Translations under genes and position numbers: made by a program
Shown: positions 2,972 through 43,321 of the stretch, piece by piece
Layout of the letters: the number at the start of each line of letters is the position of its first letter
How positions within the stretch are numbered: the first letter of the stretch is position 1
Origin: a virus
Virus record (IMG/VR): IMGVR_UViG_3300035698_002427
Coordinates: 1 to 57,376 of that record
Strand: one strand, 5' to 3'
DNA: 57,376 bases
Notes under the pieces: generated by a model
Seen by the model: the letters and a program-made list of their open reading frames with translations, nothing else
What the model was told of the DNA's origin: nothing
The model's database searches: none

Positions 2972-3976
2972 ATGAAGTTAAAATACGACGTAATATGGAA
3001 AACCAAAAACCCTAATCTCTTTGGAAGAGAAGAGGAAGTCCTATCTCTACATCTAAATGATAAGATATCTGTTTCAGAATTATCAAGAGTTTACAAATGC
3101 GATAGAAAACCAATCCAAAATCTCATAAAAAAGAATGGGTATAGCCCTAGACCAACAACATGCCCAAAGTTGGAAGGAAGAGAAGAAGAAATATTAAAAA
3201 TGTATATCACGGATCTCCTCACAGTTCAAACCATTCGAAAAAAGGTTAGTTGTTCGTATACTGTAATCAAAAACTTTTTAAAAAGAAATAATATTCAACT
3301 AAGAACTGCGGAAGAGAGTAGAAACACTGAAGATGGTAGAGTTAAAGGGACCGCCCAACGATTAAAACACCTAGACGATTTAAATACAGCGATTCAAATG
3401 TATAATAATGGGTCACCACTCCCAGATATAGCCCAGATGTACAACATGTCTGCGGTGGGATTACGTATAAAATTATTAAAAAATGGTGTAATATTAAGAA
3501 CGCCATCCGAATCGGCAACCCTTCAAACCACATATGATCGCAAAAAGGCAACCAATATGCTACATCGCGGTGTTGAAAACCCCATGCAAGATCCTGAAAT
3601 CTATGAAAAAAGTAATATAAATCGCTACAAGTTCAAATCATATATCATAAATGGTAAAACATTTAGCCATTTACAAGGATATGAACCACAGGCTATTGAA
3701 TATTTGATAAAACAACATAAAATCAATGTAAATGACATTCAAACTGGAAGACAGGTTCCAAAAATTAGATATTCCTTTGGAAGTAAACGTAAAATGTATT
3801 ATCCGGACATTTACATCAAAAAAGACAACCTCTTAGTGGAAGTCAAATGTCAATATACATACGACAACATGTTGGAATTAAACAAAACAAAACGTGCCGC
3901 GTCCCTCTCCAAAGGATATAACTATATAACTTTAATTTTTGATAATTTTGGTAAAACTTTAGTGGGGGAATTTTAA
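2972..3976 (+). CDS. free-standing homing endonuclease, PD-(D/E)XK type with three HTH repeats
   Basis: 334 residues. Three helix-turn-helix repeats of about 43 residues occupy the N-terminal half; the first two begin GREEE and all end in a G/N-x-x-x-R stretch, suiting recognition of a long DNA site. The C-terminal domain has YYPDIYI then LLVEVK (residues about 275-295), the D and E-x-K of the PD-(D/E)XK nuclease fold seen in some phage homing and Vsr-like enzymes. It is a single-gene unit with its own terminator upstream and late-type promoter, as expected of a mobile gene. It converges with the next gene, overlapping by 4 bp. Confidence 0.7.
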   Translation: MKLKYDVIWKTKNPNLFGREEEVLSLHLNDKISVSELSRVYKCDRKPIQNLIKKNGYSPRPTTCPKLEGREEEILKMYITDLLTVQTIRKKVSCSYTVIKNFLKRNNIQLRTAEESRNTEDGRVKGTAQRLKHLDDLNTAIQMYNNGSPLPDIAQMYNMSAVGLRIKLLKNGVILRTPSESATLQTTYDRKKATNMLHRGVENPMQDPEIYEKSNINRYKFKSYIINGKTFSHLQGYEPQAIEYLIKQHKINVNDIQTGRQVPKIRYSFGSKRKMYYPDIYIKKDNLLVEVKCQYTYDNMLELNKTKRAASLSKGYNYITLIFDNFGKTLVGEF

Positions 3977-4593
3977 TCTTCACCCAATTCACCCACAGGG
4001 GTCTCAACTTTAAATAGTTCTACTGTCAAATCGGGAAGCAATTCCCGCAAGGATCGACGATCCTTAGTATTTTTACATACCAAATCAAAGTAAACTTCTC
4101 CCAAATTATCATATCCACATGTGAAATAACAATCGAGTGATGATGTCGGAAAAACTGCTTCTGCTTCTGGGGTTGCCCGCCGAACTTCTGTCAATGCCTC
4201 GTTATAAAGATTAGGGAGATCTAATTGTGCTGCTTCTGCTCCAACTTGGGGGAGGTCTTTCCAAGGAATGCCACCAATAGTAGTAACTACAATATCATCC
4301 AACGCAAATTTCCATCTTCTGGTGCCATCTTCCGACGCAGATGGAAGTATTAGAGATCCACTTCGTTGATAATCGCAATCATTGATTAAACAATACCCTA
4401 AAGATCGAATATTATATGACATGCCATCATATCTTGTAATCCCCGATACATTATCACATATTCCCTTCGAGTAAACTACATTTTTATTGAACCTATTGAC
4501 AATGCCCCATCCATTTAGGTCACTATATAGCCGAAAGATTTTGGACATATCCTTATATGTATTCACCTTCACTTTTTCTTTTTTTGTATTCAT
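3973..4593 (-). CDS. hypothetical protein
   Basis: 206 residues that I do not recognise. It has several Cys and aromatic residues in the middle (NDCDYQRSG, CYFTCGYDNLGE) and no obvious membrane segment. The promoter at 4608-4635 supports ATG 4593. It is probably an early gene transcribed divergently from the small gene at 4690. Confidence 0.55.
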   Translation of the reverse strand: MNTKKEKVKVNTYKDMSKIFRLYSDLNGWGIVNRFNKNVVYSKGICDNVSGITRYDGMSYNIRSLGYCLINDCDYQRSGSLILPSASEDGTRRWKFALDDIVVTTIGGIPWKDLPQVGAEAAQLDLPNLYNEALTEVRRATPEAEAVFPTSSLDCYFTCGYDNLGEVYFDLVCKNTKDRRSLRELLPDLTVELFKVETPVGELGED

Positions 4594-4607
4594 AACTTGT
4601 AAATCGG

Positions 4608-4635
4608 ATTATAACGCCCAAAATCAAAAAATCAA
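4608..4635 (-). promoter_or_regulatory. sigma70-like promoter for the gene at 3973-4593
   Basis: Minus strand: TTGATT (4635-4630), 16 bp, TATAAT (4613-4608), 14 nt, ATG 4593. The predicted leader is about 8 nt. Confidence 0.65.
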
Positions 4636-4653
4636 GAGCAAAAATCCAATTTC

Positions 4654-4681
4654 TTGACTTTTTTTCCCTGATCTTTAAATA
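4654..4681 (+). promoter_or_regulatory. promoter with TTGACT and TAAATA
   Basis: TTGACT (4654-4659), 16 bp, TAAATA (4676-4681), 8 nt, ATG 4690. It has both a host-type -35 and the late-type box, so it could serve both RNA polymerase forms. Confidence 0.6.
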
Positions 4682-8074: not shown

Positions 8075-8080
8075 TATTTA
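8075..8080 (-). promoter_or_regulatory. late-type box TAAATA made from the gp32 stop codon
   Basis: Minus strand: CTAAATA, 5 nt, ATG 8069. TAA at 8080-8078 is the gp32 stop. Confidence 0.55.
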
Positions 8081-8944
8081 GGATGGGAGGTCGAGCCCGT
8101 CAAGTAAATCTTCTACATCAAGGGCATCCCCATCGTGGACCATTGGAATTTCATCCACCAGGTCCGCTTCTTTTTTAGCTTTCGTCACCTCTTTCTTATC
8201 TCCTGCTGCTTTTTCTTCGCAGAAGAAGTGGTCGTCTAACAGAGTGACCAACTCGTCGTGTGTTTTCACAGTATACACTGCCTCAAGATCGTGTAGATCT
8301 TCATAAATCTTATCCACATCATCTTCACTCAACTTCGTCTTGGACGAGGTTGTGAAAAACGAATTCTTATAAGTAGTGAATACGCTTTTATCTCCATTTT
8401 TTTCTGCAACAATTTTGAAATCGTGACCAGCCGTTGGATCGAAAATACTCCATCCGAGTTCTTCGGATTTCGGACCAGTCGTGGAGCTATCGATAATCTC
8501 CTTCAATTGTGGACCCATTCTAAGAATCTTAACGGTTCCATTATTTTCCGGGTTATTTCCATCATCCACAACATAAACATTAATCAACCACTGTTCCTTT
8601 TCGGACAGTTCGTTTTCATAATCCTTATTTTCCGCTTTCGGGTTGGCATCTTTCCATGCTTTGAAAAGCTTCCATCTAAGATCCGTAATTGGATCTCGTT
8701 CTCCGAAAGTTTTCAGGGCAAGCGTACTAGTATAAGTCCCAGTTGCCCGACTCGTCCACGAATTAATCCAATGGTGGAACAAAGACGCTTTGCCTTCCTC
8801 CATCGTTGGGAGTAAACGAAGAACATAAGTATGGCCCGCTGGGAACTTCATGATATTTTCGAATTGGCCACCTGAAGTGGAGGCCGATTTATTGAGGGCA
8901 TCTTTGATGCGATCAAACATTGTTGCATTGAATTTCTTTGACAT
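8078..8944 (-). CDS. 32: single-stranded DNA-binding protein (T4 gp32-like)
   Basis: 288 residues, against 301 in T4. It has a basic N-terminal self-interaction region, an OB-fold core with FHHWINSWTSRATG and LKTFGERDPITD (residues 58-95, the cyanophage form of the T4 core), and an acidic tail (VEDLLDGLDLPS). The His/Cys zinc ligands of T4 gp32 are not visible in the core. It coats ssDNA in replication, recombination and repair. The upstream leader is A/U-rich and hairpin-bearing, as expected for translational self-regulation. Confidence 0.88.
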   Translation of the reverse strand: MSKKFNATMFDRIKDALNKSASTSGGQFENIMKFPAGHTYVLRLLPTMEEGKASLFHHWINSWTSRATGTYTSTLALKTFGERDPITDLRWKLFKAWKDANPKAENKDYENELSEKEQWLINVYVVDDGNNPENNGTVKILRMGPQLKEIIDSSTTGPKSEELGWSIFDPTAGHDFKIVAEKNGDKSVFTTYKNSFFTTSSKTKLSEDDVDKIYEDLHDLEAVYTVKTHDELVTLLDDHFFCEEKAAGDKKEVTKAKKEADLVDEIPMVHDGDALDVEDLLDGLDLPS

Positions 8945-9011: not shown

Positions 9012-9260
9012 TTATTTACCCATGGCGGCAGCAATTGCAACCCCAATCAGGCCAATCAGGCCAATGACACCGATCACAAGGAGAACCCCAAGAACGATGC
9101 ACAAGGGCAACCAAAGAGGTGCAAGAACCCACCACCATGACCATGATCATGATCATGATGCGACTGCTGTTACATTTGCCAATTTAAGGCCGATAAAGAG
9201 AATGGCGAGAAATCCGAAAAAACTAATGCCCCCACCGTTTGTCTGTACTGTATTACTCAT
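9012..9260 (-). CDS. small membrane protein interrupted by two in-frame TGA codons at Trp positions
   Basis: ATG 9260 overlaps the TGA of the upstream gene (ATGA). The frame gives 82 codons ending at TAA 9014-9012. Codons 36 (9155-9153) and 38 (9149-9147) are TGA inside a Ser-Trp repeat, where TCA alternates with TGA and then TGG. The frame continues WWWVLAPLWLPL and a Gly/Ile/Val-rich membrane helix. Small phage membrane proteins with WSWWWVL-type segments are common, so both TGAs sit where Trp is expected. Options are a nonsense-decayed gene, UGA readthrough or repeat-linked sequence error. Confidence 0.6.
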
Positions 9261-9931
9261 TTTAATTTATGTTCTATTTTCCTTTTTGCTTTTTTACCAA
9301 AGTCTTTCATCGTCTTCGACATATAATAATTACTTCGGGTTTTCCGAAAGGTCCCATAAAAGTCCGCGAAGATGAAATCCAATATTCTGGAGTCTACCAC
9401 GGGATTTGAGAATGTCAATGCGTGGAGGACGTAAAAGTTGATTTTGTGAGTTTTGAGATGATCTAAAAAACAGGGGATGGCGTCCGTTTGGAATTTAGCA
9501 TACTCAGATAATTGTAGATCGTTTTCATTACAAAATCCAAAGACGAACTTAAGCCCTTGTTGAAGTCGTTTCAAAGCATCTGGAGAATCGGGATCTTGAA
9601 CATCCAACATTCTTCGATATTGTGTGTAACACTTAATAGCTTTTTGAGTTTGAAAAAACTCAAGATCATAATGATCTACATCCAAATACAATTTATATGG
9701 AGCGTCAAAAAACTCTCGCATATCCACAGTTGGATTATTTGAAAAGAATCTTGATATATTGTTGAGAATTATTTCCGTCTCCTCATCCAAATTAGAAAAG
9801 TTTTTCCTGAGTGTATAAGGCTTTCCTCTTGATTGTCTCGACACTTGTAAGTGTGTATTGTAGATACACTCTTCAACTTTTCTCACTCTAGCTACTTCTA
9901 ACATCTTCCGTCCCAAATTAACCTGTCTCAA
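9257..9931 (-). CDS. hypothetical replication-region protein, possible helicase-loader (gp59) counterpart
   Basis: 224 residues, mostly helical, with a basic C-terminus (GKKAKRKIEHKLK). I cannot identify it directly. In T4 the all-helical helicase loader gp59 (217 residues) lies just upstream of gene 32, and this gene has similar size, position and predicted secondary structure. That is a positional argument only. It overlaps both neighbours by ATGA junctions, so it is translationally coupled. Confidence 0.5.
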   Translation of the reverse strand: MRQVNLGRKMLEVARVRKVEECIYNTHLQVSRQSRGKPYTLRKNFSNLDEETEIILNNISRFFSNNPTVDMREFFDAPYKLYLDVDHYDLEFFQTQKAIKCYTQYRRMLDVQDPDSPDALKRLQQGLKFVFGFCNENDLQLSEYAKFQTDAIPCFLDHLKTHKINFYVLHALTFSNPVVDSRILDFIFADFYGTFRKTRSNYYMSKTMKDFGKKAKRKIEHKLK

Positions 9932-10825: not shown

Positions 10826-11694
10826 ATTAATTCTAATTTTGTGGTGAAGTCTAAGAACTTTTTACTTAAGATTCCCCCAGCGGTCCATTCACCACCCCCA
10901 CCACCACAAAGGTTTTCTGCCATATATGCAATGTCTGCCTCCGATCCAACGGGTTTTCTAAAAGACGCGAATTTGGTGGCTTGGTTGACCACGATTATAA
11001 CATCGCTCGGGTGATTGTCAATCAACAATTTCGAAATTTCGTTGACGCTGCAAGAGGAGAAAGTTGCGATCACAGACCAGTCCTTAAACACGCCCGTGTA
11101 TAACTCCAATTTTTTATATTCGTCCGCAATAGATTTGAAAAATATATCTACGCTCTCGAATTCATCATCAGTCAACCCATCATAACCATCCCAGAATCTA
11201 TTGACAAAAGTTTGGAATCTGTTGTATCTAATAGATCGATACACGGCATTTAAATACTTCGACTCATCAAACTTTAGAGCATATGAATTATAATCGTCCA
11301 CATATAGTATGAGTCTCTTGAGTTGTTTTGTGAACTGGACCTTCTCTTTAAATTTTTGGTATATCAATTTACAACACGATGATGTCTCTTCGGAGATCAA
11401 TGTCGAATCATACATGTTCAACTTCTCCCCTCGATCCGAAATGAATACAACTTTCTTGTCGTCCAATTTATTCACCATTGACTGATCCAGAACCATCCCA
11501 ACGATGAACACTTTGTCGTATCCCTCTAGAGAATGCTGGGACCACTTTTCAAATTGCTCTTGGAACGTTCCAAAGAATGCATATTTGTATTCGATATTTG
11601 AAAATATATTTCCCAGAAGGATGGTAGACACTACTCCATCCATATCTGAATTCGCCCATACAAAAACTTTTGCCATCCTGTCATAATTAATCAT
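10822..11694 (-). CDS. DHH/DHHA1-like phosphoesterase with a degenerate DHH motif
   Basis: 290 residues. WANSDMDGVVSTILL (residues 13-27) matches the D-x-D-G motif I of DHH phosphoesterases. VFISDRGE sits where the D-H-H signature is expected, so only the first Asp is kept. LYVDDYN (about 130) fits the fourth acidic motif. A C-terminal GGGGGEWTAGG matches the DHHA1 G-G-G-H-x-x-A-A-G substrate loop with His changed to Glu. It was probably derived from a NrnA/NrnB-type oligonucleotide phosphodiesterase, and activity is doubtful. The alternative start at residue 7 (M-A-K-V-F) is equally plausible. Confidence 0.6.
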   Translation of the reverse strand: MINYDRMAKVFVWANSDMDGVVSTILLGNIFSNIEYKYAFFGTFQEQFEKWSQHSLEGYDKVFIVGMVLDQSMVNKLDDKKVVFISDRGEKLNMYDSTLISEETSSCCKLIYQKFKEKVQFTKQLKRLILYVDDYNSYALKFDESKYLNAVYRSIRYNRFQTFVNRFWDGYDGLTDDEFESVDIFFKSIADEYKKLELYTGVFKDWSVIATFSSCSVNEISKLLIDNHPSDVIIVVNQATKFASFRKPVGSEADIAYMAENLCGGGGGEWTAGGILSKKFLDFTTKLELI

Positions 11695-11697
11695 AAT

Positions 11698-12066
11698 CTA
11701 TGAAATGTCAATACTTTTTACCACTCTATCTTCAAACCCCACAGTCCACCCAAACTTACAATCCCCCATGACTATAAAATTGTAATCGTGGTGCCCCAAT
11801 CCCGTAGACGTATTGGAAAATATAAAGTTTTCGTTACCATCATGGTAATTTATACACTCCCCACATTCGTCCCGGTCTAAATAGCTTGGAAATGGATCAT
11901 TATATACTTTTTCATACCATTCCCGAAACCATTCACATACGTCTCTATAATTTTCACAGGTAATTAATGATGAGCCGTCCCCACCCGAGTCTCTAATATG
12001 ACCTAAAAACCATCTAAATAAATCTTCTGCCCATATGTTATCGACTAATACTTCTGATGTCTTCAT
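11698..12066 (-). CDS. hypothetical protein
   Basis: 122 residues, acidic and rich in Trp, Cys, His and Asp (DRDECGECINYHDG, LGHHDYNFIVMGDCKFGW). A metal-binding fold is possible but not assignable. It starts 5 nt downstream of the gp41 stop, in the same operon. Confidence 0.45.
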   Translation of the reverse strand: MKTSEVLVDNIWAEDLFRWFLGHIRDSGGDGSSLITCENYRDVCEWFREWYEKVYNDPFPSYLDRDECGECINYHDGNENFIFSNTSTGLGHHDYNFIVMGDCKFGWTVGFEDRVVKSIDIS

Positions 12067-14075: not shown

Positions 14076-14088
14076 GTGTTAAATATTG
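14060..14088 (+). repeat. 29-bp perfect direct repeat, copy 1
   Basis: Identical to 14864-14892 and containing GTGTTAAATATTG. In-frame similarity continues past the repeat (GENNPPFDFSQ here, AENKFSFDYFT after copy 2). It marks a duplication of the promoter and 5' end of the gene at 14895. Confidence 0.85.
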
Positions 14089-14163
14089 GTAGAACTCGCG
14101 GCGAGAATAATCCCCCATTTGATTTTTCGCAAAAAGATGGACTCTCACACCTGAGCAGATCAA

Positions 14164-14169
14164 TAAATA
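14164..14169 (+). promoter_or_regulatory. late-type box TAAATA, 5 nt before ATG 14175
   Basis: TAAATA, 5 nt (ACAAT), ATG. It supports ATG 14175 over the upstream in-frame GTG at 14076. Confidence 0.6.
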
Positions 14170-14174
14170 ACAAT

Positions 14175-14837
14175 ATGAAAACATTTGAACAATTTTTCCT
14201 TGAGATGGCAAGACCTAATAGGGTAATCCCGGCCCTAATTGGACAGGAACCAACCGCCAGATATGAAAACCTATTCGAAAGACTTGGAAAATCCTTGAGA
14301 AGTGGCAACTCCACAACGGGAGAACCCCTAATGGACACAACCGGAGATCCCGCATATGGGTTGGGCGACGATAGAATCCAAGAGAGAAAACTCAAATGGT
14401 TTTTCTATGTATTGACGTTACCAAAACTCACAGGGTCCGTAGTAATCCCACACAACTTGAAACCCGAGATCGAGAGATCACGTAAATATGTTCGTAATAT
14501 AATCTCAACCAACGATATAAAAAATATACCCCCAACACACAAGGGTAGACATATTTTGGCCATTGCATTGGCAATAAAAGCAAATCCATCCTACTTTAAC
14601 GATGAATTATTTGAAAAAACGCTGTTCAATCCAACAGCCCTTGGAGATTATCTCAACCAAATGAGAACAACAGACAACCCAACATCACAGACCAGAGGCA
14701 AAGAAAAAGAAGCCCAACATAATATACCTCTCCGAAATATTGACAAAGTCAACTCGGCCAATCGACCATATGAAACGACCCTCAATAAAATGAAGGGACA
14801 TCATTCTATAATGAAGCCAACCCATAATGAAGTTTGA
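14175..14837 (+). CDS. putative internal head protein, T4 IPIII-like leader
   Basis: 220 residues. MKTFEQFFLE|M closely resembles the capsid-targeting leader of T4 internal protein III (MKTYQEFIAE). The body (LFERLGKSLRSG, then GLGDDRIQERKLKWFFYVLTLPKL) is paralogous to residues 20-90 of the next gene. The rest is basic and polar. Predicted fate: co-assembly into the prohead core, cleavage after the Glu and ejection with DNA. The P3 residue is Phe, not the Leu/Ile of T4. It is a plus-strand late gene embedded between early minus-strand operons. Confidence 0.6.
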   Translation: MKTFEQFFLEMARPNRVIPALIGQEPTARYENLFERLGKSLRSGNSTTGEPLMDTTGDPAYGLGDDRIQERKLKWFFYVLTLPKLTGSVVIPHNLKPEIERSRKYVRNIISTNDIKNIPPTHKGRHILAIALAIKANPSYFNDELFEKTLFNPTALGDYLNQMRTTDNPTSQTRGKEKEAQHNIPLRNIDKVNSANRPYETTLNKMKGHHSIMKPTHNEV

Positions 14838-14863: not shown

Positions 14864-14892
14864 AAAAACGCGAAGTCAAGTGTTAAATATTG
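14864..14892 (+). repeat. 29-bp perfect direct repeat, copy 2
   Basis: Matches 14060-14088 base for base. It contains the late-type box of the gene at 14895. Confidence 0.85.
14883..14889 (+). promoter_or_regulatory. late-type box TTAAATA, 5 nt before ATG 14895
   Basis: TTAAATA, 5 nt (TTGTC), ATG. It lies in copy 2 of the 29-bp repeat. Confidence 0.65.
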
Positions 14893-14894
14893 TC

Positions 14895-16466
14895 ATGACC
14901 AGCGCCGAGAATAAGTTTTCATTTGATTATTTTACAAAAAGACAAGAACTTTTAGAGATGGCGGGGGGTAGAACAAATCCCCTCGTCCACCTTGGGGAAC
15001 ACGGCAAACAAGCTAATGACCTATTTGCCTCAGTTGGAAGCACCATGAAATATGGTGGCACTAAATCAGATGGACAAAAAGTCCCCGGGCTGGGAGGACT
15101 TAGACATGTAAATCGACAATTGAGATTCTTCATCTTTGCGATGACAAAAATGGACGAGACTCCCGAAGGGACCGACATCCTATCCGACAAAGAGTCTAGT
15201 AAAAGTATACAATCTACTGCCGCAAGCATTCTGGGAATCCCATACGAAGGATGGACAAAGAAATACATAAATTCAGATAAATTATATAGAGCCGCCATAT
15301 TGAAAGGAGTGGACGGAGAATATAAAGACTATATAATGTCTCCAGAATTCAACAAGAAAGTTAGGGACACAGACAATGTCCTAGATTTTGCCGAGCAAAA
15401 TAGATTCACAGACCATCAATCATATCGAGGTCGTCAAAATAGAGAAGATAAATATGGAATGTCGGGAAAAGACATCGACTCAGCCGAAACGAAGTTTGGA
15501 CTCACAGACGCCATTACAGCTATAAACAAAGCCCAAGGCTATCGGAATTTGAAAAAAACTCTCAAATCTAAAAAAGAAACACCAACCGCAACAAACCATA
15601 ACAATTACATAGACAACCTAAATCTAATATTAGATTCTTTGGAGATCCTACAACACAATTCAAAAACGATAAAAAAATTCGTTAATGCTCGTTTGAACTC
15701 CTACCCCAACCCCGATGTCCGGGAAGTCACTAAAAATGCAATCAAAGATTTACATGATGAATATCCACAGATGGATATTCAAACTATCGTAGACTTATAT
15801 GGATCAGATACAAGTATCTATAATATGCTGCATAAATCATATTCTTCCCTCGAATCTCAAGGTATAGATTTGAATATATTCAATAAAAGAATAGAAAAAT
15901 TTAAACAAGCAAACGCATCCAATAAAACATATGTAAAATTAATCGACTATTTCTTACAAGAAATGAAAGATCTACAATCATCTTATAATGAGGTTCCAGA
16001 GCAATATGATGCAGATATAGATCCCTTATCTGGATATGATAAAGATCTCATTGAGCAACATATTCCAGACCCGGAGAGCCTTGAACAATTCAAACGATAC
16101 GCAGACATAAAAAGAATTAGAAATAATAACACGCAAGAAGGAAAAGAAGAACGGCTATATAGCAAAGAACTACAAAATGCCGCAGATACATTTTTAATTC
16201 CGAGAATGGAAAAACAAATACAGGAAATGGAACAAATTGCCCAAGAGTTAAGATCTGAAATTGGTAAACATCCCACAGATCAACCAAAAGAACCTGAACA
16301 AGCTCCACCATCTGATCCATTTGCAGACATTGAAGAGTCGTACACTCTATCATATATGAGCGAACAGGTCGAAAAAGACAGATTAAACAAACCTCTGGGC
16401 GATTTCGTGGATCGAGGCTTTAAAAAAGTTACAAATTATGCCCAATGGATGTGGTTAAACCGCTAA
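14895..16466 (+). CDS. large putative internal head protein with capsid-targeting-like leader
   Basis: 523 residues from ATG 14895. The leader runs to RQELLE|MAGGR, giving an L-x-E site at residue 21. Residues 22-90 are paralogous to the preceding gene. The remainder is long, helical and highly charged (coiled-coil-like around 360-460), with a Pro-rich stretch near 465. The size is unusual for an internal protein, so an ejected effector or structural core protein is possible. The last 12 bp overlap the convergent methyltransferase gene. Confidence 0.6.
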   Translation: MTSAENKFSFDYFTKRQELLEMAGGRTNPLVHLGEHGKQANDLFASVGSTMKYGGTKSDGQKVPGLGGLRHVNRQLRFFIFAMTKMDETPEGTDILSDKESSKSIQSTAASILGIPYEGWTKKYINSDKLYRAAILKGVDGEYKDYIMSPEFNKKVRDTDNVLDFAEQNRFTDHQSYRGRQNREDKYGMSGKDIDSAETKFGLTDAITAINKAQGYRNLKKTLKSKKETPTATNHNNYIDNLNLILDSLEILQHNSKTIKKFVNARLNSYPNPDVREVTKNAIKDLHDEYPQMDIQTIVDLYGSDTSIYNMLHKSYSSLESQGIDLNIFNKRIEKFKQANASNKTYVKLIDYFLQEMKDLQSSYNEVPEQYDADIDPLSGYDKDLIEQHIPDPESLEQFKRYADIKRIRNNNTQEGKEERLYSKELQNAADTFLIPRMEKQIQEMEQIAQELRSEIGKHPTDQPKEPEQAPPSDPFADIEESYTLSYMSEQVEKDRLNKPLGDFVDRGFKKVTNYAQWMWLNR

Positions 16467-22407: not shown

Positions 22408-23190
22408 TTATTTACTTTTGTTTTCTAAAAGCTGTTTTTTTATTAAATTGGTCTGCTTTATCTTTTGTTTTGTCTCCTCAGACATTGGTTTTCTTTTTTT
22501 CCCTAATTTAGCCTGTCTCATTTTTTCTATTGTTTCTTTTGTAAATGGCCTTCTGGCGATCCCCAATTTAGCCAAGCTCAAGTTTTTTTTATGTTCTTCT
22601 GAAAATGATATACCTAATTTACATTGTCTCATTTTATCTTTTGTTTCGTCTGTATGCTTCAAATGCAACTGTCTCCGTTTTTCTTTATATTTCTCAGACC
22701 TCGGGGTTCTCATTTTAATTTTTGTAGCTTCCGAATGCGATCTCCCAAGTTGGGAGATGCTCATCTTTTTTCTAGTTTCTTCTGTTGGGTGCTTCCCCAA
22801 TCTAGATAAACTCATTTTTCTTTTCGTGTCATCGGAGTGCTTCGATCCAGTCCTATCCGTAGAATATCCACACCCATTGTATCCTTTAAGTTTGTTGGTT
22901 GAATCGAACATTTTTATATAAAATGCTTCTCTTTCAAGAAGAGTATTATTATCTTTAGTCTTATCAAAATCTTTAACCATTTCTAATATTTCAACACTAA
23001 AAGCGTTCCACCCATACTTTATTATAGCGTTTTCAAAATAACATCTACCTATAGTATTTTTCTCACAATTTCTGTGCCGATTTAATCGAACATGAATATT
23101 AATCGCTTTCCCGATATACACTTTGTCACTATAAATACAAGTCAATTTATAGATTCCCGCAGCTTTCGGATATTTGTCTTCTGTCTTCAT
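22408..23190 (-). CDS. GIY-YIG homing endonuclease with NUMOD3 repeats, inserted at the polymerase 5' end
   Basis: 260 residues. The GIY-YIG domain is GIYKLTCIYSDKVYIGKA (residues 12-29), R at about 35 and E at about 96. It is followed by about seven NUMOD3-type DNA-binding repeats (S-x-E-T-K-x-K-M-x-x-x-x-L-G). It sits between the polymerase gene and that gene's former promoter and start. It has its own late-type box. It is a typical free-standing homing gene of the seg class. Confidence 0.88.
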   Translation of the reverse strand: MKTEDKYPKAAGIYKLTCIYSDKVYIGKAINIHVRLNRHRNCEKNTIGRCYFENAIIKYGWNAFSVEILEMVKDFDKTKDNNTLLEREAFYIKMFDSTNKLKGYNGCGYSTDRTGSKHSDDTKRKMSLSRLGKHPTEETRKKMSISQLGRSHSEATKIKMRTPRSEKYKEKRRQLHLKHTDETKDKMRQCKLGISFSEEHKKNLSLAKLGIARRPFTKETIEKMRQAKLGKKRKPMSEETKQKIKQTNLIKKQLLENKSK

Positions 23191-35081: not shown

Positions 35082-35813
35082 ATGAGACTTGCAATTTCTG
35101 GAACCGCAAATACAGGCAAAACCACATTGGTCAATGCGTTCAAGCATAGATGGCCAATGTATACATCACCCACAAAAACTTATAGAGATATCCTAAAAGA
35201 GAAAAACCTGAGCCATTCCTCGGAAACGAGTGCCGAGACTCAATTGGCAATTCTTGATTGGATGATGTCTGAGCAAAAAAATTATCCCAAGGATTCCTAT
35301 GTGATCTATGATCGCTGTCCTTGGGATAATTTAGCATATACTCTTCAGGGGAATGCAGATGGCTTGATTTCGGATGAAGTTACAGCCGCTTCAATCTCCT
35401 TTGTTAAAAAATCCATGAAAGAATTGGATATTATCTTCTGGTTGAAGTATAATCCCACAATTAAAATTGTAGATGATGGTGTGCGAGACACCACAGATGG
35501 ATTTATTGAAGAAACGGATAAGATTTTTGGCGATCTGTTCGATCAATACATGGACAATCTCGATCAAGATATTTTTTATCCAAAAGAAGACTGCCCTGCT
35601 ATCATCGCTCTGGATGATGCATTTCCAACTGTTGATGATCGCATGATGTTTATTGGAGAGTTCCTAAACAAAGAGGGAGATCTAATTGAAACGGACGAGT
35701 CGATCTTGAGTATGGACAATCTGAAAATCTACGAGGATATTCTGGGAGATCAGAAAAAACAAATAGAGGCAGATGCCAGATTGAACAAAATCATTGGAGA
35801 ATTGAAAAAATGA
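35082..35813 (+). CDS. P-loop kinase-like ATPase (NadR/AAA_28-type)
   Basis: 243 residues. SGTANTGKTTLVNAF (Walker A, residues 6-20), SYVIYDRCPWDNLAY (about 78, resembling the D-R motif of deoxynucleoside or NadR-type kinases) and IFWLKYNPTIK. A small-molecule kinase of nucleotide, sugar or cofactor type is likely. It is the first gene of the glycan operon and is coupled to the next by ATGA, so a role in sugar metabolism is possible. Confidence 0.6.
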   Translation: MRLAISGTANTGKTTLVNAFKHRWPMYTSPTKTYRDILKEKNLSHSSETSAETQLAILDWMMSEQKNYPKDSYVIYDRCPWDNLAYTLQGNADGLISDEVTAASISFVKKSMKELDIIFWLKYNPTIKIVDDGVRDTTDGFIEETDKIFGDLFDQYMDNLDQDIFYPKEDCPAIIALDDAFPTVDDRMMFIGEFLNKEGDLIETDESILSMDNLKIYEDILGDQKKQIEADARLNKIIGELKK

Positions 35814-36667
35814 AAAGTCCAGGGAAAATTGGGGTAGGCATTATCACCTGTAATCGGCCAGAAATGTTAAAAAAATGTTGTCTGTCGCTTAAAGATAATG
35901 CCACCATTGACGAAATAATTATCATAGATGATGGAACTGAAAGAGTGTCTCCTAATTGGTTTCTCGAAAATCGGATTTTTCACACGGAAAATGGAGAGTT
36001 AGAGATTAACAATAGGGTAAGTCACAATTATACCAATTTGGGTGTAGGGGAATCCAAAAATAAAGCTCTTAATCATCTATTGGATACGAGATGTGATCAC
36101 ATATTTTTAATTGAGGATGATATCTTTATTAAAGACCCAACTGTTTTCCTAAAGTATATAGAAGCATCTTTAGTCTCTGGAATCCAACATTTCAATTTCT
36201 CCCAACATGGTTTGATGAATAAGACTTTTGATGGAAGAAAAACACCCAACCCCCGATTGATTGTAGATTATGGTGGGGTGAAAATTCCATTATACCCACA
36301 TTGTGTGGGGGCATTTTCATATTACTCGAAATACTGTCTCGATTTTGTGGGATTATTGGATGAAAGATATGTCAATGCTTGCGAGCATGTGGATCATACG
36401 TATCAAATCATTAAAAAGGAAATGCATCCCCCGTTTTGGTATTTCGCAGATATTGAAAACTCTTGGGAATATTTGGGAGATGAGGAATGGTCCTTGGCGA
36501 ACTCCACGATCTCTTCTAAGCCTAACCATCAGCAGATGATGCGGGACGCAGATAAAATCTTCGTTGAGACGCACGGGCATCTCCCGGTCGAAACTCCGCA
36601 GGTTGGAGAAGAAGATGTAATAAAAACTTTAAAAGAAATTAAAAAGACATGGACCTTACAATTGTAA
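35810..36667 (+). CDS. glycosyltransferase family 2-like
   Basis: 285 residues. GVGIITCNRPEMLKKCCLSL (GT-A start), EIIIIDDGT, NLGVGESKNKAL and HIFLIEDDIFI (D-D metal motif, about 100) are standard GT2 features. YPHCVGAFSYYSKYCLDFVG and ERYVNACEHVDHTYQI form the acceptor half. The sugar is unknown. It overlaps both neighbours. Confidence 0.82.
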   Translation: MKSPGKIGVGIITCNRPEMLKKCCLSLKDNATIDEIIIIDDGTERVSPNWFLENRIFHTENGELEINNRVSHNYTNLGVGESKNKALNHLLDTRCDHIFLIEDDIFIKDPTVFLKYIEASLVSGIQHFNFSQHGLMNKTFDGRKTPNPRLIVDYGGVKIPLYPHCVGAFSYYSKYCLDFVGLLDERYVNACEHVDHTYQIIKKEMHPPFWYFADIENSWEYLGDEEWSLANSTISSKPNHQQMMRDADKIFVETHGHLPVETPQVGEEDVIKTLKEIKKTWTLQL

Positions 36668-37359
36668 CGTGTAATCATAATACCCCAAAATTAATTCGAA
36701 ATTTGGTGAAGTCGGTCAATAATACTTGTGAAAGTGTTCCTAAAATATTGGTGGTTGATACGGGCCACCACCCAACACCATACCAAGAAATGGCTATTGG
36801 TGCGTCTTATTGGTGGCACCCTGACAGGTCACATGGGGATGCTGTTAATGGTGCTATGTCTAAAAAATCAATTAAGACTCGATACATGCTATTAGTGGAT
36901 TCTGATGTTTTGTTCCTCAAAGATATTAAAAAACCCTTCGAAAAATTTAAAGAGTCCGGTGTAGCGTTGATGGGCGAAGTGGTCGGAGATCGAGGAGGAA
37001 AATCATTATACCCTAGAGTCAATCCATGGTTCTGTTTTATAGATTTGGACACCATCAAGGCTAACGACATCGAGTTTTATGACCAGTATAGAACAAAAGA
37101 AATTAAATCTGAGAAGATTTATGATATAGGCTCAACATTCTATGAGGATATTTTAGGAAAAGGATTAGAAATTGGAGATGCTAAAATGGAGGGAAAGTAT
37201 TTTAAACATTATGAAGGAATGTCTTGGAGAGTTCAGAAATATGATCCCTCTAATGGAGACACTGACATCGATGTTGGAGGAACTCATGATAACAAAGCAT
37301 TATATGAGTATGGTTTAATGGTGGCAAAGCAATACGAGATAGACATTAAGGAATTATGA
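36649..37359 (+). CDS. glycosyltransferase family 2-like
   Basis: 236 residues. LTIVTCNHNTPKLIRNLV, KILVVDTGHHP, HGDAVNGAM and YMLLVDSDVLFLKDI (D-S-D metal motif, about 85) show the GT-A fold. GSTFYEDILGKGLEI and FKHYEGMSW make up the C-terminal part. It overlaps the previous gene by 19 bp and the next by ATGA. Confidence 0.78.
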   Translation: MDLTIVTCNHNTPKLIRNLVKSVNNTCESVPKILVVDTGHHPTPYQEMAIGASYWWHPDRSHGDAVNGAMSKKSIKTRYMLLVDSDVLFLKDIKKPFEKFKESGVALMGEVVGDRGGKSLYPRVNPWFCFIDLDTIKANDIEFYDQYRTKEIKSEKIYDIGSTFYEDILGKGLEIGDAKMEGKYFKHYEGMSWRVQKYDPSNGDTDIDVGGTHDNKALYEYGLMVAKQYEIDIKEL

Positions 37360-37970
37360 AAACATTAAATGATTATTTTGAAAAAATATATTGTTTGAAT
37401 TTGGATCGGAGAACTGACAGATGGGAGAAATGTCAGGAGAATTTCAAAAAACTTCATCTAAATGTTGAAAGAGTCTCGGCAATAGACAAACATACCCTAA
37501 CATCCAATACTTCAATATCTGAAGGACAATTGGCTTGCTCGAAAAGCCATCTATCAATGATACAAAAGGCTAAGGATGATCAATTATCCCCCATATTAAT
37601 ATTAGAAGATGATGTGATATTATCCGATAATATCAATGAGGTGTTCGAAAAAAATGTGAATAATATTCCCAGGGATTGGGGCATGTTATATTTTGGGGGA
37701 AATCATTTAAATGGGACGGTTCATGTGGTGGAAGATATTCACCGGATGCGCTCATCTTTAACCACTCACGCATATTCTTTAAATGCTAGATTATATGATG
37801 GGATTCTTTCTGGGGTTGGTCGTAATTGGCCCATTGATGTATATTATGCCAGTATACACAGACAAGTTCCTTGTTATGTAATGCAAGAAGGGGCCAAACA
37901 ATTAGCATGGCAGGATGATGGATATAGTGACATTGACGAAGCTGAATGTCACTATACATGGTTGAAGTAA
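37356..37970 (+). CDS. glycosyltransferase family 25 (LPS-type galactosyl/glucosyltransferase-like)
   Basis: 204 residues. IYCLNLDRRTDRWEKCQ, VERVSAIDK, GQLACSKSHLSMIQKA (the GT25 G-x-x-x-C-x-x-S-H motif) and PILILEDDVIL (acidic motif) place it in family 25, known from lipooligosaccharide synthesis. HAYSLNARLYDGIL and PIDVYYASIHR follow in the usual order. Confidence 0.85.
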   Translation: MKTLNDYFEKIYCLNLDRRTDRWEKCQENFKKLHLNVERVSAIDKHTLTSNTSISEGQLACSKSHLSMIQKAKDDQLSPILILEDDVILSDNINEVFEKNVNNIPRDWGMLYFGGNHLNGTVHVVEDIHRMRSSLTTHAYSLNARLYDGILSGVGRNWPIDVYYASIHRQVPCYVMQEGAKQLAWQDDGYSDIDEAECHYTWLK

Positions 37971-37980
37971 CACAGTAGGT

Positions 37981-38688
37981 ATGAATAATTTTACACTATC
38001 TATAATAATTCCATGCTATGAAATGAGTGGAAAAGGATCAATATTCTTGAAAAAGTCTCTTGATATTTTAAGAAATCAAGATATAGAAACTTTGAAGTTT
38101 GAAATTGTAATTTCCGATCATTCGATTGACGATGAAATTCAAAAATGTTGTGAATTATATACAGATCTCAATATAGGATATATTAAAAATGATCAAAATC
38201 GAGGATCTATGTCGGCAAATGCCAATAATTGTATTCGACATTGTTCTGGAAAATATATAAAACCATTATTTCAAGATGATTATTTATTCTCTAACAATTC
38301 TTTACGATTAATGGTGGACAACATCCAAGATAACTGGATCTCTCATGAATACATTCATTTTGATTACGCTGATAATAAGTATTATAACCAGCGAACGCCC
38401 TATTATAATGCGAATATGAGGTCGGGTGTGAATACTATAGGACCACCAACTGCTACAATTTTTTTAAATGACGATAATTTTTTTGATGAAGAGTTGTCCT
38501 GGTTTATGGATACAGATTTTTTTCACAGAATGTTCTTAAAATACGGCCCAATGACAGTATTAAAATGTAATACGCCATTGAGCGTTGTCACAACTTGGTC
38601 GGGGCAGACCACCAACACCACAATCACTCAAGAATTAATTCAAAACGAATCACAATATATAAAACGCAAATATGAAAACATACACTGA
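37981..38688 (+). CDS. glycosyltransferase family 2
   Basis: 235 residues. LSIIIPCYEMSGKGSIFLKKSL, KFEIVISDHS, NRGSMSANANNCI and YIKPLFQDDYL (D-D motif about 97) are classic GT2 elements. WFMDTDFFHRMFLKYG is the later acidic motif. The 3' end overlaps the next gene by 17 bp. Confidence 0.85.
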   Translation: MNNFTLSIIIPCYEMSGKGSIFLKKSLDILRNQDIETLKFEIVISDHSIDDEIQKCCELYTDLNIGYIKNDQNRGSMSANANNCIRHCSGKYIKPLFQDDYLFSNNSLRLMVDNIQDNWISHEYIHFDYADNKYYNQRTPYYNANMRSGVNTIGPPTATIFLNDDNFFDEELSWFMDTDFFHRMFLKYGPMTVLKCNTPLSVVTTWSGQTTNTTITQELIQNESQYIKRKYENIH

Positions 38689-39355
38689 CGATCTATTACC
38701 AAAACTGAGATATAAATTTGAATCTTGCGAATTAATTAAAACTAATTACTCTCAAGTTTATCAAGACATGTTTGTATTAACTATGTTAGATGGTAAACGC
38801 GATGGCATTTTTGTAGAGATTGGCGCGAGTCATCCTATATCTATCAACAACACGTTCTTACTAGAATCTCAATTTAATTGGGACGGAATTTCTATTGACA
38901 TTGCGGATTTTTATTCCTTTAAAAATACAAGGAGATCCAAATTTTTATGTCAAGATGCGTTGACCATTGATTATAAAAAATTATTTGAAGATCATAAGTT
39001 ACCATTTCAAATCGATTATCTTCAAGTGGACATCGACCCCAATTATAATACATTATCATGTTTGAAACGATTACCACTTGAAGATTATAGATTTTCAGTT
39101 ATAACATATGAAACTGATGTGTATGATCCCAATATGCCTAGAGACCAGGCATTAAAAAATAGGCAAGAATCAAGAGATATTTTATTATCCCATGGATATG
39201 AAATGCTAGTCGGAAATATATGTAATTTGTCTACATCTGACCCATTTGAAGATTGGTACGTTGATCCGAATATTATATCAAAAGAAATTATAGATAAAAT
39301 GCGAGAATCATCTGAATATAACAATACAGCAGAAAGTTACATGTTTGATTTATGA
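38672..39355 (+). CDS. FkbM-type SAM methyltransferase
   Basis: 227 residues. SQVYQDMFVL, GIFVEIGASHPISINNTFLLE (SAM-binding loop, about 47-67), WDGISIDI and QIDYLQVDIDP match FkbM-family methyltransferases, which O-methylate sugars in surface glycans. It probably modifies the glycan made by its neighbours. The stop overlaps the start of the next, frame-disrupted gene. Confidence 0.75.
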   Translation: MKTYTDDLLPKLRYKFESCELIKTNYSQVYQDMFVLTMLDGKRDGIFVEIGASHPISINNTFLLESQFNWDGISIDIADFYSFKNTRRSKFLCQDALTIDYKKLFEDHKLPFQIDYLQVDIDPNYNTLSCLKRLPLEDYRFSVITYETDVYDPNMPRDQALKNRQESRDILLSHGYEMLVGNICNLSTSDPFEDWYVDPNIISKEIIDKMRESSEYNNTAESYMFDL

Positions 39356-39666
39356 TAATTACGGAACTCTACAATGGCCAGGGGCTAGGAAACCATTTCA
39401 TGGTTTTTATAACGAAGATGGGTTTATCTGCGTTAATTATAGGCATGTTTACAAAGAGAATGGAATGAAATTTGCGGGCATTGATACGGCTAAATATTTT
39501 TCACATGAAACTCCAATCCCTGAAATTGAAGGTATTGTCCCGTTTGCATTTCACGGAAGAAAGGGGATTTTTGATTAATTATACTAAATCTTATCCCAGA
39601 CTATTGACTTGTTGTGAGGATATGATATGCTTCTTAACAGAAGACGAAGAAATTTCAATTCAATAA
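39352..39666 (+). pseudogene. frame-disrupted glycan gene, GQGLGN N-terminus
   Basis: ATG 39352 overlaps the previous TGA (ATGA) and encodes MIITELYNGQGLGN, the start of a family found in phage and bacterial glycan clusters and related to GT11-type folds. That frame closes at about residue 39. A second frame carries KPFHGFYNEDGFICVNY ... FAFHGRKGIF to 39578, then the first frame resumes with INYTKSYPRLLTCCEDMICF to TAA 39664-39666. Two compensating single-base changes, near 39390 and 39570, would give one roughly 105-residue protein. The full family is longer, so it is probably a decayed remnant. Confidence 0.5.
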
Positions 39667-39667
39667 T

Positions 39668-40957
39668 ATGATATTAAAAGAAAACATTAAAACTTTAGTG
39701 GGGAATCACGTATCTCCATACATCTACAATGCGAAAGAGTTTAATCCCGGAATAACTCCGATTTATTATTCTGGTCCGTATTGGAACAGTGAAGAAACGG
39801 AGGCGGCATTAGACTCGTTTCTAAATGGAAAATGGATAACCGCCGGGGAGAAAGTTTTCAAATTTGAAAAAGAATTCAGCAAAAAGTTTCATTGTAAGTA
39901 TTCTCATATGGTAAACTCTGGAAGTTCCGCGAACCTAATTTTGATTACAGCCCTGAAAAAACGATTTGGGTGGGACGATGGAGATGAAATAATTGTGTCT
40001 CCCGTAGGATTCCCAACCACAATTTCAGTAATATATCAAAACAGATTAGTTCCCACATTTGTTGATATTGAATGGGACACTTTAAATTTTGACATCAATA
40101 AAATTGAAGAAAAGATAACGCAAAAGACAAGAGCTATTTTTGTTTCGCCCGTATTGGGAAATCCCCCAGACATTGACAAACTATTAGAATTGTGTAAAAA
40201 ATATAATCTGCTATTGGTTGGCGACAACTGTGATAGTTTGGGTAGTAAATGGGACGGCAAATATTTGAATGAATATTATGTCGCTTTTTCCAATTCCTTT
40301 TATCTCGCCCACCACATCAGCACAGGCGAGGGCGGGATGGTCTGCACCGATGATGTGGAATTGAAGAAACTGTTCGTGAGCCTATGCTGGTGGGGACGAG
40401 ATTGCTATTGTGTGGGATCTGCTAACCTCTTGCCGTGTGGCTCATGTGGAAAACGTTTCGATAAATGGTTGGACGATTTTGATGGAGTGATAGATCATAA
40501 ATACGTGTTTTCTGAAATGGGATATAATTTAAAACCTTTAGATTTACAAGGAGCAATTGGGTTAGTTCAATTATCTAAATTGGATGAAATAGAAGAACGG
40601 AGACAAACATCCAAGACCACAATTACAGACATATTTCTACGTAACTTGGATGGTATTCACACTCCCACAACCTTAGAAAAGGCAAATCCCTGTTGGTTCG
40701 GAACACCATTTATATGCGAAGATCCAATTTTGAAACATAAATTGGTAAAACATTTAGAAGAAAATAAGATTCAAACTCGAAATTATTTTGCTGGGAATAT
40801 CCTCATCCATCCCGGCTATAAATTTCTTGGCAATTATAAAGATTATCCAGAATCAAATAAAGTGTTAGACAGAGTATTTTTCATTGGGGCCGCACCACAT
40901 TATACGGAAGAGGTGTTTGAATATATTGAAGAAACCGTAAAACAATTTAAATTATGA
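39668..40957 (+). CDS. rfbH: RfbH-type CDP-4-keto-6-deoxyglucose 3-dehydrase (PMP and [2Fe-2S] dependent)
   Basis: 429 residues, as in RfbH/AscC (E1). A DegT/DnrJ-type fold-type I enzyme in which the PLP lysine is replaced by His: SFYLAHHISTGEGG (about 212-225). CWWGRDCYCV...CGSCGKRF (about 240-265) matches the cysteine cluster holding the iron-sulfur centre in E1. It removes the 3-OH on the way to 3,6-dideoxyhexoses (paratose, abequose, tyvelose, ascarylose). The reductase partner E3 is not in the window. Confidence 0.88.
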   Translation: MILKENIKTLVGNHVSPYIYNAKEFNPGITPIYYSGPYWNSEETEAALDSFLNGKWITAGEKVFKFEKEFSKKFHCKYSHMVNSGSSANLILITALKKRFGWDDGDEIIVSPVGFPTTISVIYQNRLVPTFVDIEWDTLNFDINKIEEKITQKTRAIFVSPVLGNPPDIDKLLELCKKYNLLLVGDNCDSLGSKWDGKYLNEYYVAFSNSFYLAHHISTGEGGMVCTDDVELKKLFVSLCWWGRDCYCVGSANLLPCGSCGKRFDKWLDDFDGVIDHKYVFSEMGYNLKPLDLQGAIGLVQLSKLDEIEERRQTSKTTITDIFLRNLDGIHTPTTLEKANPCWFGTPFICEDPILKHKLVKHLEENKIQTRNYFAGNILIHPGYKFLGNYKDYPESNKVLDRVFFIGAAPHYTEEVFEYIEETVKQFKL

Positions 40958-41766
40958 TATCAGTATTTGGGGCAAAAGGATTTATTGGTTCGGCATTTTG
41001 TCGAAAATATAAAGAGCAAGTTATAGAAATCGAAAGAGATAGTGTTATACCATTGTCCAATGAGGTGTTGTATCTCATAAGTACTGTAGACAATTATAAT
41101 ATTTTCAATGACTCAAAAATAGATATTCAAACCAATCTAATTCATTTGATGTCGGTCTTAGATAATTGCAAGGACAGAGATATAACCTTCACATTTATTA
41201 GTTCTTGGTTTGTGTATGGTAATGATTACCTTCCCGCTTTCGAAACTGATGTTTGTAATCCCAAAGGATTCTATTCTATAACTAAACACGCCGCAGAATT
41301 AATGTTGGAATCTTATTGTAAGACTTTCAACATCAAATATAAAATAATTCGTATGGCGAACGTCATTGGGAAGAATGATAGTAAGGTGTCGAAGAAAAAA
41401 AACGCCTTTCAATATTTGATTGGGGAACTAAAAGAAAATAGACCCATTGCATTATACAATGATGGCCTATTTTATAGGGATTATATACACATCCAAGATG
41501 CAATTGAGGGAATTAAACTAGTTGTGGGTGAAGGTGAATCTGGAGAGATTTATAATTTAGGATCTGGGTGTCCAAATTTATTCAAAAATATAATTTCATA
41601 TGCCCACACCAAACTAAACTCTAAAAGTGAAATTGGGACGATGGCTCCTACCGATTTTCACAAATTGGTGCAAGTAAAATCTATATACTTAGATATAACA
41701 AAGATCGAAGAACTTGGATATTTTCCAAAAATAGACCTCATAACTGCTATAGACGATATATTATAA
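40954..41766 (+). CDS. NAD(P)-dependent sugar reductase/epimerase (extended SDR), possible CDP-dideoxyhexose synthase
   Basis: 270 residues. GAKGFIG (4-10) is the G-x-x-G-x-x-G dinucleotide motif. FISSWFVYG holds the catalytic Ser, and FYSITKHAAELM the Y-x-x-x-K. It directly follows rfbH by an ATGA overlap. In Salmonella and Yersinia the corresponding neighbours (RfbJ, RfbS) reduce the RfbH product to CDP-abequose or CDP-paratose, so that role is likely. Confidence 0.75.
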   Translation: MISVFGAKGFIGSAFCRKYKEQVIEIERDSVIPLSNEVLYLISTVDNYNIFNDSKIDIQTNLIHLMSVLDNCKDRDITFTFISSWFVYGNDYLPAFETDVCNPKGFYSITKHAAELMLESYCKTFNIKYKIIRMANVIGKNDSKVSKKKNAFQYLIGELKENRPIALYNDGLFYRDYIHIQDAIEGIKLVVGEGESGEIYNLGSGCPNLFKNIISYAHTKLNSKSEIGTMAPTDFHKLVQVKSIYLDITKIEELGYFPKIDLITAIDDIL

Positions 41767-42575
41767 TGAAACCTACTTTAACTGGAAGCGTAACCGACAA
41801 CACCCATTTAGATCATATTGATTTTAAATGCATGGTTTTATTTGAACCATGTCCCCAATTTTTATATTCTAATTGGCGAGAGGCACTGCGAGATTATGAT
41901 AAAATCATTATGATCAATGGATGTGAGCCGCCACCAATAAACAATATAAGATCGATACTGGAGTCTCAAGATCTTGATTCTATGGATGTCTACACTTTCG
42001 ATGAAGAATTACTCAACAATTTTCCGAAATTTAAGAAATTCATATTTGGAACCTGTTGGGTGCTGACAAATGAGAATGGCAACATGGTCAACACGCGAGC
42101 GGAATATTTCGATTTCTTCAAACCTGAAAATAAGAACTTTAAAGTGTCGTATATCCGCTCCGATAAAAATTGCTTAGAGGGGCATAGACTCAGACACCAA
42201 ATATCATTTGATGATTGTGCATGTGAGATTTTATATCCTAAGTATAGAATCGACACAAAGATACCATTGTTTGTAGATTCTATGTTTCATATCTCCATTG
42301 AAAATTCCAAATATGCTAATTATTTCACAGAAAAAATTATAGATTGTTTCATGAGTAAAACGATTCCTATATATTGGGGGTGTCCAAACATATCAGAATA
42401 TTTTAATCCGGATGGTATTATAACATTTGAAACTCCCGAAGAACTAACCACAATATTACGCACCATAAGTCCAACGTGGTATCAGGATAGACTTCCGGTA
42501 ATTTTAGAAAACTATGAAAGGTCCAAAGAATACGCATTCATATGGGATCGGTTGAACAACATGGTGCTATCGTGA
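41766..42575 (+). CDS. GT10 fucosyltransferase-like (alpha-1,3/4 type)
   Basis: 269 residues. FHISIENSKYANYFTEKIID (about 175-194) and PIYWGCPNISEYFNPDGII are the diagnostic donor-binding block of family 10 alpha-1,3/4-fucosyltransferases. CWVLTNENG... makes up the N-terminal domain. The donor may be GDP-fucose or another deoxysugar nucleotide. ATG overlaps the reductase stop (TAATG). Confidence 0.82.
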   Translation: MKPTLTGSVTDNTHLDHIDFKCMVLFEPCPQFLYSNWREALRDYDKIIMINGCEPPPINNIRSILESQDLDSMDVYTFDEELLNNFPKFKKFIFGTCWVLTNENGNMVNTRAEYFDFFKPENKNFKVSYIRSDKNCLEGHRLRHQISFDDCACEILYPKYRIDTKIPLFVDSMFHISIENSKYANYFTEKIIDCFMSKTIPIYWGCPNISEYFNPDGIITFETPEELTTILRTISPTWYQDRLPVILENYERSKEYAFIWDRLNNMVLS

Positions 42576-43321
42576 CAAAATGTTATGCCAGATTGGCGGG
42601 TGGTGTAGGTAATCAATTGTTTATCACTGCGGCAGCGTATGCGTATTCTAAAAAATATAATAAAGAATTATGCTTAGATGGGGATAATTGGGTCGGCCAT
42701 CAAGGCAAACCGGCAAATGAATATAGAGATACAATTTTCAAGAATTTTATATATGATAGTTCATACCTATCGGGCACCACTCCGATTTTAGAAAAACGAT
42801 GTAATTATGATGACCCCCCAGAAATCGATGGAAGTGTTGCATTTTGCGGATACTTCCAATCACTAAAATATTTTGAAGAATATAAGGATGATTTTATAAA
42901 AGAATTGAACCTCCCGGAAGTTGATGTATCGATCCTCAATAAAAAGAATGTAGCGTTTCACATCAGAAGAGGTGATTATCTGACATTTAAAGACATCTAT
43001 GGAATCTGTGGAACCAAATATTTCGAAGATCACTTTAAAAAGTTTGAGGATTATCAGATCAATGTATTCACAGATTCTCCAGAGCATGTTTTAGACGAGT
43101 TTGAGAAATATGATTTCAATTTAATTCAAACCTCATCAGAATTAAATGACTTGACTTTGATGTCGAAGCATGATAGTATGGTGTGTAGCAACTCTACCTT
43201 TTCATGGTGGGCGTCCCTGATCGGAAATACGAAAACTGTGATAGTTCCCGATAAATGGTTCTTAGACGGGAGAGAACACGAAGACATTTATAGACCCGAT
43301 ATGATAAAATATGAGCTTTAA
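42572..43321 (+). CDS. GT11 fucosyltransferase-like (alpha-1,2 type)
   Basis: 249 residues from GTG 42572, chosen for its GTGA overlap with the GT10 stop; an ATG at 42542 would lie inside that gene. ARLAGGVGNQLFITAAAYAY (motif at the start), VAFHIRRGDYLTF (the HxRRxDY motif, about 130) and SNSTFSWWASLIG are the three GT11 motifs. It probably adds a deoxysugar to the surface glycan. Confidence 0.85.
   Translation: MTKCYARLAGGVGNQLFITAAAYAYSKKYNKELCLDGDNWVGHQGKPANEYRDTIFKNFIYDSSYLSGTTPILEKRCNYDDPPEIDGSVAFCGYFQSLKYFEEYKDDFIKELNLPEVDVSILNKKNVAFHIRRGDYLTFKDIYGICGTKYFEDHFKKFEDYQINVFTDSPEHVLDEFEKYDFNLIQTSSELNDLTLMSKHDSMVCSNSTFSWWASLIGNTKTVIVPDKWFLDGREHEDIYRPDMIKYEL

Follow-up and report, generated by a model that had tools for sequence, protein, structure and literature searches.

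The interrupted gene and its surroundings

The window, that is the whole stretch of 57,376 bases analysed here (virus record IMGVR_UViG_3300035698_002427 of IMG/VR, positions 1 to 57,376), carries on its minus strand a small gene whose frame is interrupted by two TGA codons. The 82-codon frame runs from the start ATG (9260-9258) to a TAA (9014-9012), with TGA at codon 36 (9155-9153) and codon 38 (9149-9147). The features of the locus are as follows:

9257..9931, minus strand: upstream gene, protein in the gp59 position; its TGA overlaps the ATG of the interrupted gene as ATGA
9012..9260, minus strand: phrog_1374-family small membrane-protein gene, 82-codon frame with two in-frame TGA codons
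9153..9260, minus strand: standard-code product, 35 codons, with the N-terminal tail and the first hydrophobic segment, ending at the TGA of codon 36
9135..9158, minus strand: hexanucleotide array TCATGA-TCATGA-TCATGG-TCATGG (minus-strand letters)
9144..9155, minus strand: 12-bp extra segment TGA TCA TGA TCA, codons 36-39, absent from all relatives
9012..9143, minus strand: downstream family part, open and conserved, with WSWWWVLAPLW and the second hydrophobic segment
9043..9065, minus strand: second in-frame tandem repeat of the same gene, 9-bp unit, 2.6 copies, encoding VIGLIGLIG
8078..8944, minus strand: downstream (3') gene, gp32-like ssDNA-binding protein (phrog_224, 3e-28)

When the frame was read across both TGAs, the protein matched phrog_1374, a PHROGs v4 family of unknown function, with an E value of 2.3e-13 over profile positions 6-68 of 89, so that the match spans both stops. 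The continuation 3' of the stops reads SWSWWWVLAPLWLPL and is followed by a hydrophobic segment; two membrane helices are predicted for the read-through protein from sequence alone. The window gene carries the family motif F-I-x-LKL ... WSWWWVLAPLW, the latter part of which lies just past the first hydrophobic segment and is the most conserved stretch of the family. Since the downstream half holds the most conserved family residues, the interrupted frame is more than chance, and we regard the gene, by sequence similarity, as a homologous but interrupted member of phrog_1374. The first-pass annotation, which had described a conserved-type membrane protein next to gp32, open past its TGAs, and had given the codon run TCA TGA TCA TGA TCA TGG TCA TGG TGG TGG, was borne out in each of these respects, the run being exact to the letter.

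Relatives of the protein are encoded at 80 loci in viral contigs. All 31 aligned family proteins match phrog_1374, and 28 of them also match PF10269 (Tmemb_185A, Transmembrane Fragile-X-F protein) at E<=1, weakly to moderately (best 7.5e-8), whereas a Pfam search with the window's read-through protein gave no match at E<=1, PF10269 included. No function was found in this analysis for phage members of PF10269. In phage GenBank records there was no direct DNA relative, and the read-through protein had no tblastn match, while the orthologous protein of locus L005 gave 163 tblastn matches there, mostly weak. A role in lysis was considered and set aside: genes flanking family members belong mostly to DNA/nucleotide metabolism or the HNH type, none of the families listed there containing a lysis gene, and weak matches of family proteins to holin profiles were taken as shared hydrophobicity.

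The protein encoded upstream (9257..9931) has no PHROG match, and we take it to be gp59 from its position and the gene order of T4. The ATGA start was also seen at locus L270. The neighbourhood further includes a sliding clamp, a DnaB-like helicase and DNA polymerase, which mark it as the replication region of a T4-like phage. Of about 70 related gp59-gp32 loci, most have too little room between the two genes to hold a phrog_1374 gene, and in relative G002 (206 kb, DNA polymerase 71% identical) no phrog_1374 match was found anywhere in the genome. The absence of the gene from these relatives indicates that its loss is tolerated and that it is dispensable; it is an accessory gene, and the place that it takes between gp32 and the gp59-position gene is a slot for variable cargo. 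At two loci near the same clade, L273 and L282, the slot is occupied instead by ORFs that look GIY-YIG-like from their sequence (3910-4668 and 1149-1829, respectively), with repeated C-terminal motifs. A similar, putatively GIY-YIG-like ORF lies at 22408-23190 (minus strand) of the window, directly upstream of the DNA polymerase gene.

Several other features of the window were recorded. A helicase gene (45037-47553, plus strand; phrog_2488) apparently has an intein breaking up its Walker A region, and there are HNH endonuclease matches at about residues 260-310. Two adjacent plus-strand ORFs in one frame (14076-14837 and 14880-16466), separated by a TGA and an open 14-codon spacer, have similar starts, which suggests tandem paralogues. 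At 11692-11700 (minus strand), the TAG of the gene 12066-11698 is followed within one codon by the in-frame ATG of the next gene (11694-10822); this link is probably due to chance, because relatives G001 and G002 lack the upstream gene between the helicase and its neighbour. The run of genes at 35810-43321 (plus strand) resembles glycosyltransferases and sugar-metabolism enzymes (aminotransferase-like, epimerase-like), as judged by sequence. The record opens (1-127) with 2.2 copies of a 57-bp unit without mismatch, perhaps the reason why the contig ends there.

Orthologues and the hexamer array

Syntenic orthologues at four loci (L005, L006, L270 and L281) lie between the same two genes, and all are uninterrupted. 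The closest, L005 and L006, read ...LTAVAS-WSWIWVLCPLW, and L270 reads ...LTAVAT-WSWLWVLSPLW, whereas the window reads ...VTAVAS-*S*S-WSWWWVLAPLW; L281 has the ordinary WSWWW. The proteins flanking the L005 orthologue are about 48-83% identical to those of the window. Four extra codons thus sit between ...TAVAS and WSWWW, where relatives pass directly into WSWWW, WSWIW or WSWLW. At the DNA level, the alignment shows a single clean 12-bp difference, with the gap set by the program at the equivalent repeat position, the exact placement inside the repeat being arbitrary.

In the window gene, every Trp codon of the hallmark motif WSWWW is an intact TGG. The TGAs had been placed "at Trp positions", but relatives have no codon there, which rules out TGG-to-TGA decay of family Trp codons. 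The proposal of a sequence error in a repeat held as far as the repeat goes, which is the seat of the event and has both TGAs in its extra codons; the error itself is weighed below. No extra WSWS or internal stop was found at any of the 80 family loci in public viral contigs, so that the frame kept in 80 relatives is broken in the window copy. A scan of viral contigs with the degenerate pattern [W/*]S[W/*]SWWWV, which is blind to the WSWIW/WSWLW subtype, gave 118 stretches with no family member among them.

The array (TCATGA)2(TCATGG)2 is the sole perfect hexamer array with at least three copies in the 57-kb window. The extra TCATGA units (TGATCATGATCA) might be an assembly or amplification artefact that is not in the phage population, where the gene would be intact. 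No second record of the same phage was found in viral_contigs or genome_contigs, collections that may omit near-identical records, and the stops could consequently be a minority variant or have arisen in assembly. The record is a single contig, no other record of this phage backs the extra units, and a self-complementary array with a 12-bp hairpin is the type of sequence where polymerases slip. Nevertheless, we consider an artefact unlikely, given that the array of just 24 bp lies well inside a short read, the frame is kept, and no other obvious break was seen among the neighbouring genes.

The array might also act as a reversible switch, in which TGA units are gained and lost via slippage, the gene being off here and on in sister genomes. 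Four hexamer copies, the frame maintained on both sides of them and the second in-frame tandem repeat of the gene, whose VIGLIGLIG residues are extra with respect to the orthologues and partly missing from them, would fit such a switch. Yet the expansion occurs in no relative and slippage from four short copies is expected to be rare, so that we regard a switch as quite improbable.

Downstream of the stops, the window is identical to L005 at 19 of 27 residues and to L270 at 17 of 27; upstream, the corresponding values are 19 of 33 and 18 of 33. As similarity to the orthologues is no lower downstream than upstream, the downstream part shows no decay. This would fit a recent break, and equally readthrough or bypass of the stops.

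Possible translation through the stops

The statement that the genome is not simply recoded is correct: TGA is an ordinary stop that terminates about 26 of 72 window genes (crude codon-score gene calls), including the immediate upstream gene 9931-9257, which rules out genome-wide use of UGA for Trp. The internal TGAs could still be taken for Trp codons, through a suppressor tRNA or near-cognate decoding, which would give an 82-residue protein with an SWSWSWSWWW run (junction ...VASWSWSWSWWW). Here the open and conserved downstream frame speaks for readthrough, and so does the extent of the record: with relatives of 197-212 kb, the window is probably about one quarter of the genome, and a suppressor tRNA may be encoded in the other three quarters or so, the likely home of tRNA clusters. 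The Trp suppressor tRNA with a UCA anticodon that had been suggested was, however, found neither in the window, which has no tRNA gene, nor in four large relatives, each of which has 9-25 tRNA matches; two of the four carry a tRNA-Trp with anticodon CCA, and the other two no tRNA-Trp. No internal stops were seen in the DNA polymerase of the large relatives. Given also that no family member contains TGA and that two UGAs would have to be passed in series, the suggested readthrough gained no positive support, and we consider it extremely improbable. Separately, putative amber suppressor tRNAs with a CUA anticodon (ARAGORN "tRNA-Pyl") were observed in three relatives of 196-212 kb, at L324 8160-8233 (minus strand), L326 2942-3014 (plus strand) and L328 637-711 (plus strand), and are 68-74% identical to one another.

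The intact downstream half would also be expected if ribosomes hopped over the stops in frame, with the peptidyl-tRNA-Ser moving from the UCA before the first UGA to another UCA that lies 6 or 12 nt further on. In that case the insert would be skipped, the 12-nt repeat insertion neutralised and the ancestral ...AS-WSWWW protein still made (junction ...VAS-WSWWW). The UCA-UGA-UCA-UGA-UCA geometry fits synthetic stop-hop sites with matched codons around the stop, and the insert gives rise to an RNA hairpin of 12 bp, which does not form without it. In-frame stop hops have been shown with synthetic constructs, no natural case being known according to a 2016 review (PMC5009743). But matched codons and hairpin come with any two copies of this repeat, because its sequence is close to self-complementary; compared with shuffled sequences, the fold is not significant (z -0.4 to -1.5). 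The insert is conserved in no relative and no stimulatory peptide is known; we give a stop hop hardly any credence.

Renewed initiation downstream of the stops was rejected. The only in-frame ATG in 9012..9143 is the third-last codon (codon 80), the other candidates are TTG/GTG codons without a clear Shine-Dalgarno sequence, and the overlapping ATG at 9156 opens another frame of 46 aa (MIMIMVMVVG...) unrelated to phrog_1374. The 35-aa truncated protein might instead function in its own right, as it retains its first hydrophobic segment, conserved KL included, along with the ATGA start for translational coupling; since this short form is without the motif that the family conserves best and no relative is equally short, we find this very improbable.

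A probable truncated allele and its comparison with known systems

We therefore favour, as the probable explanation, a recent tandem-repeat slippage that produced a truncated, probably inactive allele of an optional membrane-protein gene. By slippage during replication, a tract of TCATGG hexamers would have gained two units, which with G-to-A changes became TCATGA TCATGA, leaving the frame intact yet bringing in two UGA stops. Under the standard code, the product would be 35 residues long with one hydrophobic segment, and as it would be without WSWWWVLAPLW, the allele has most likely lost its function. The mutational route was most likely slippage combined with point change, and the lack of decay downstream makes a recent break most likely as well. 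What speaks against slippage with loss of function is the fully preserved downstream half, which readthrough or bypass would also give.

The locus is thus most likely a recent loss-of-function allele rather than a novel mode of decoding. It is a clear, if small, illustration that an optional gene of a phage can be broken by a short repeat within a Trp/Ser-rich motif while the frame is kept, and a caution that an in-frame TGA need not signal recoding; the case would matter more only if expression showed the stops to be skipped.

In common with the bypass of T4 gene 60 and synthetic stop hops (PMC5009743), the window has matched codons flanking the stops and a hairpin at the site; it differs in its in-frame gap of 6-12 nt and its lack of conserved stimulators, and is known from sequence alone. 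Phages that recode UGA as Trp (code 4-like) or carry suppressor tRNAs likewise have TGA within an otherwise open coding frame, but the window differs from them in its frequent TGA stops, in that no UCA tRNA was found and in the single gene seen to be affected. With phrog_1374, the window copy shares length, the N-terminal tail, F-I-x-LKL, WSWWWVLAPLW and two hydrophobic segments, and the window alone has four extra codons, two of them TGA, before WSWWW.
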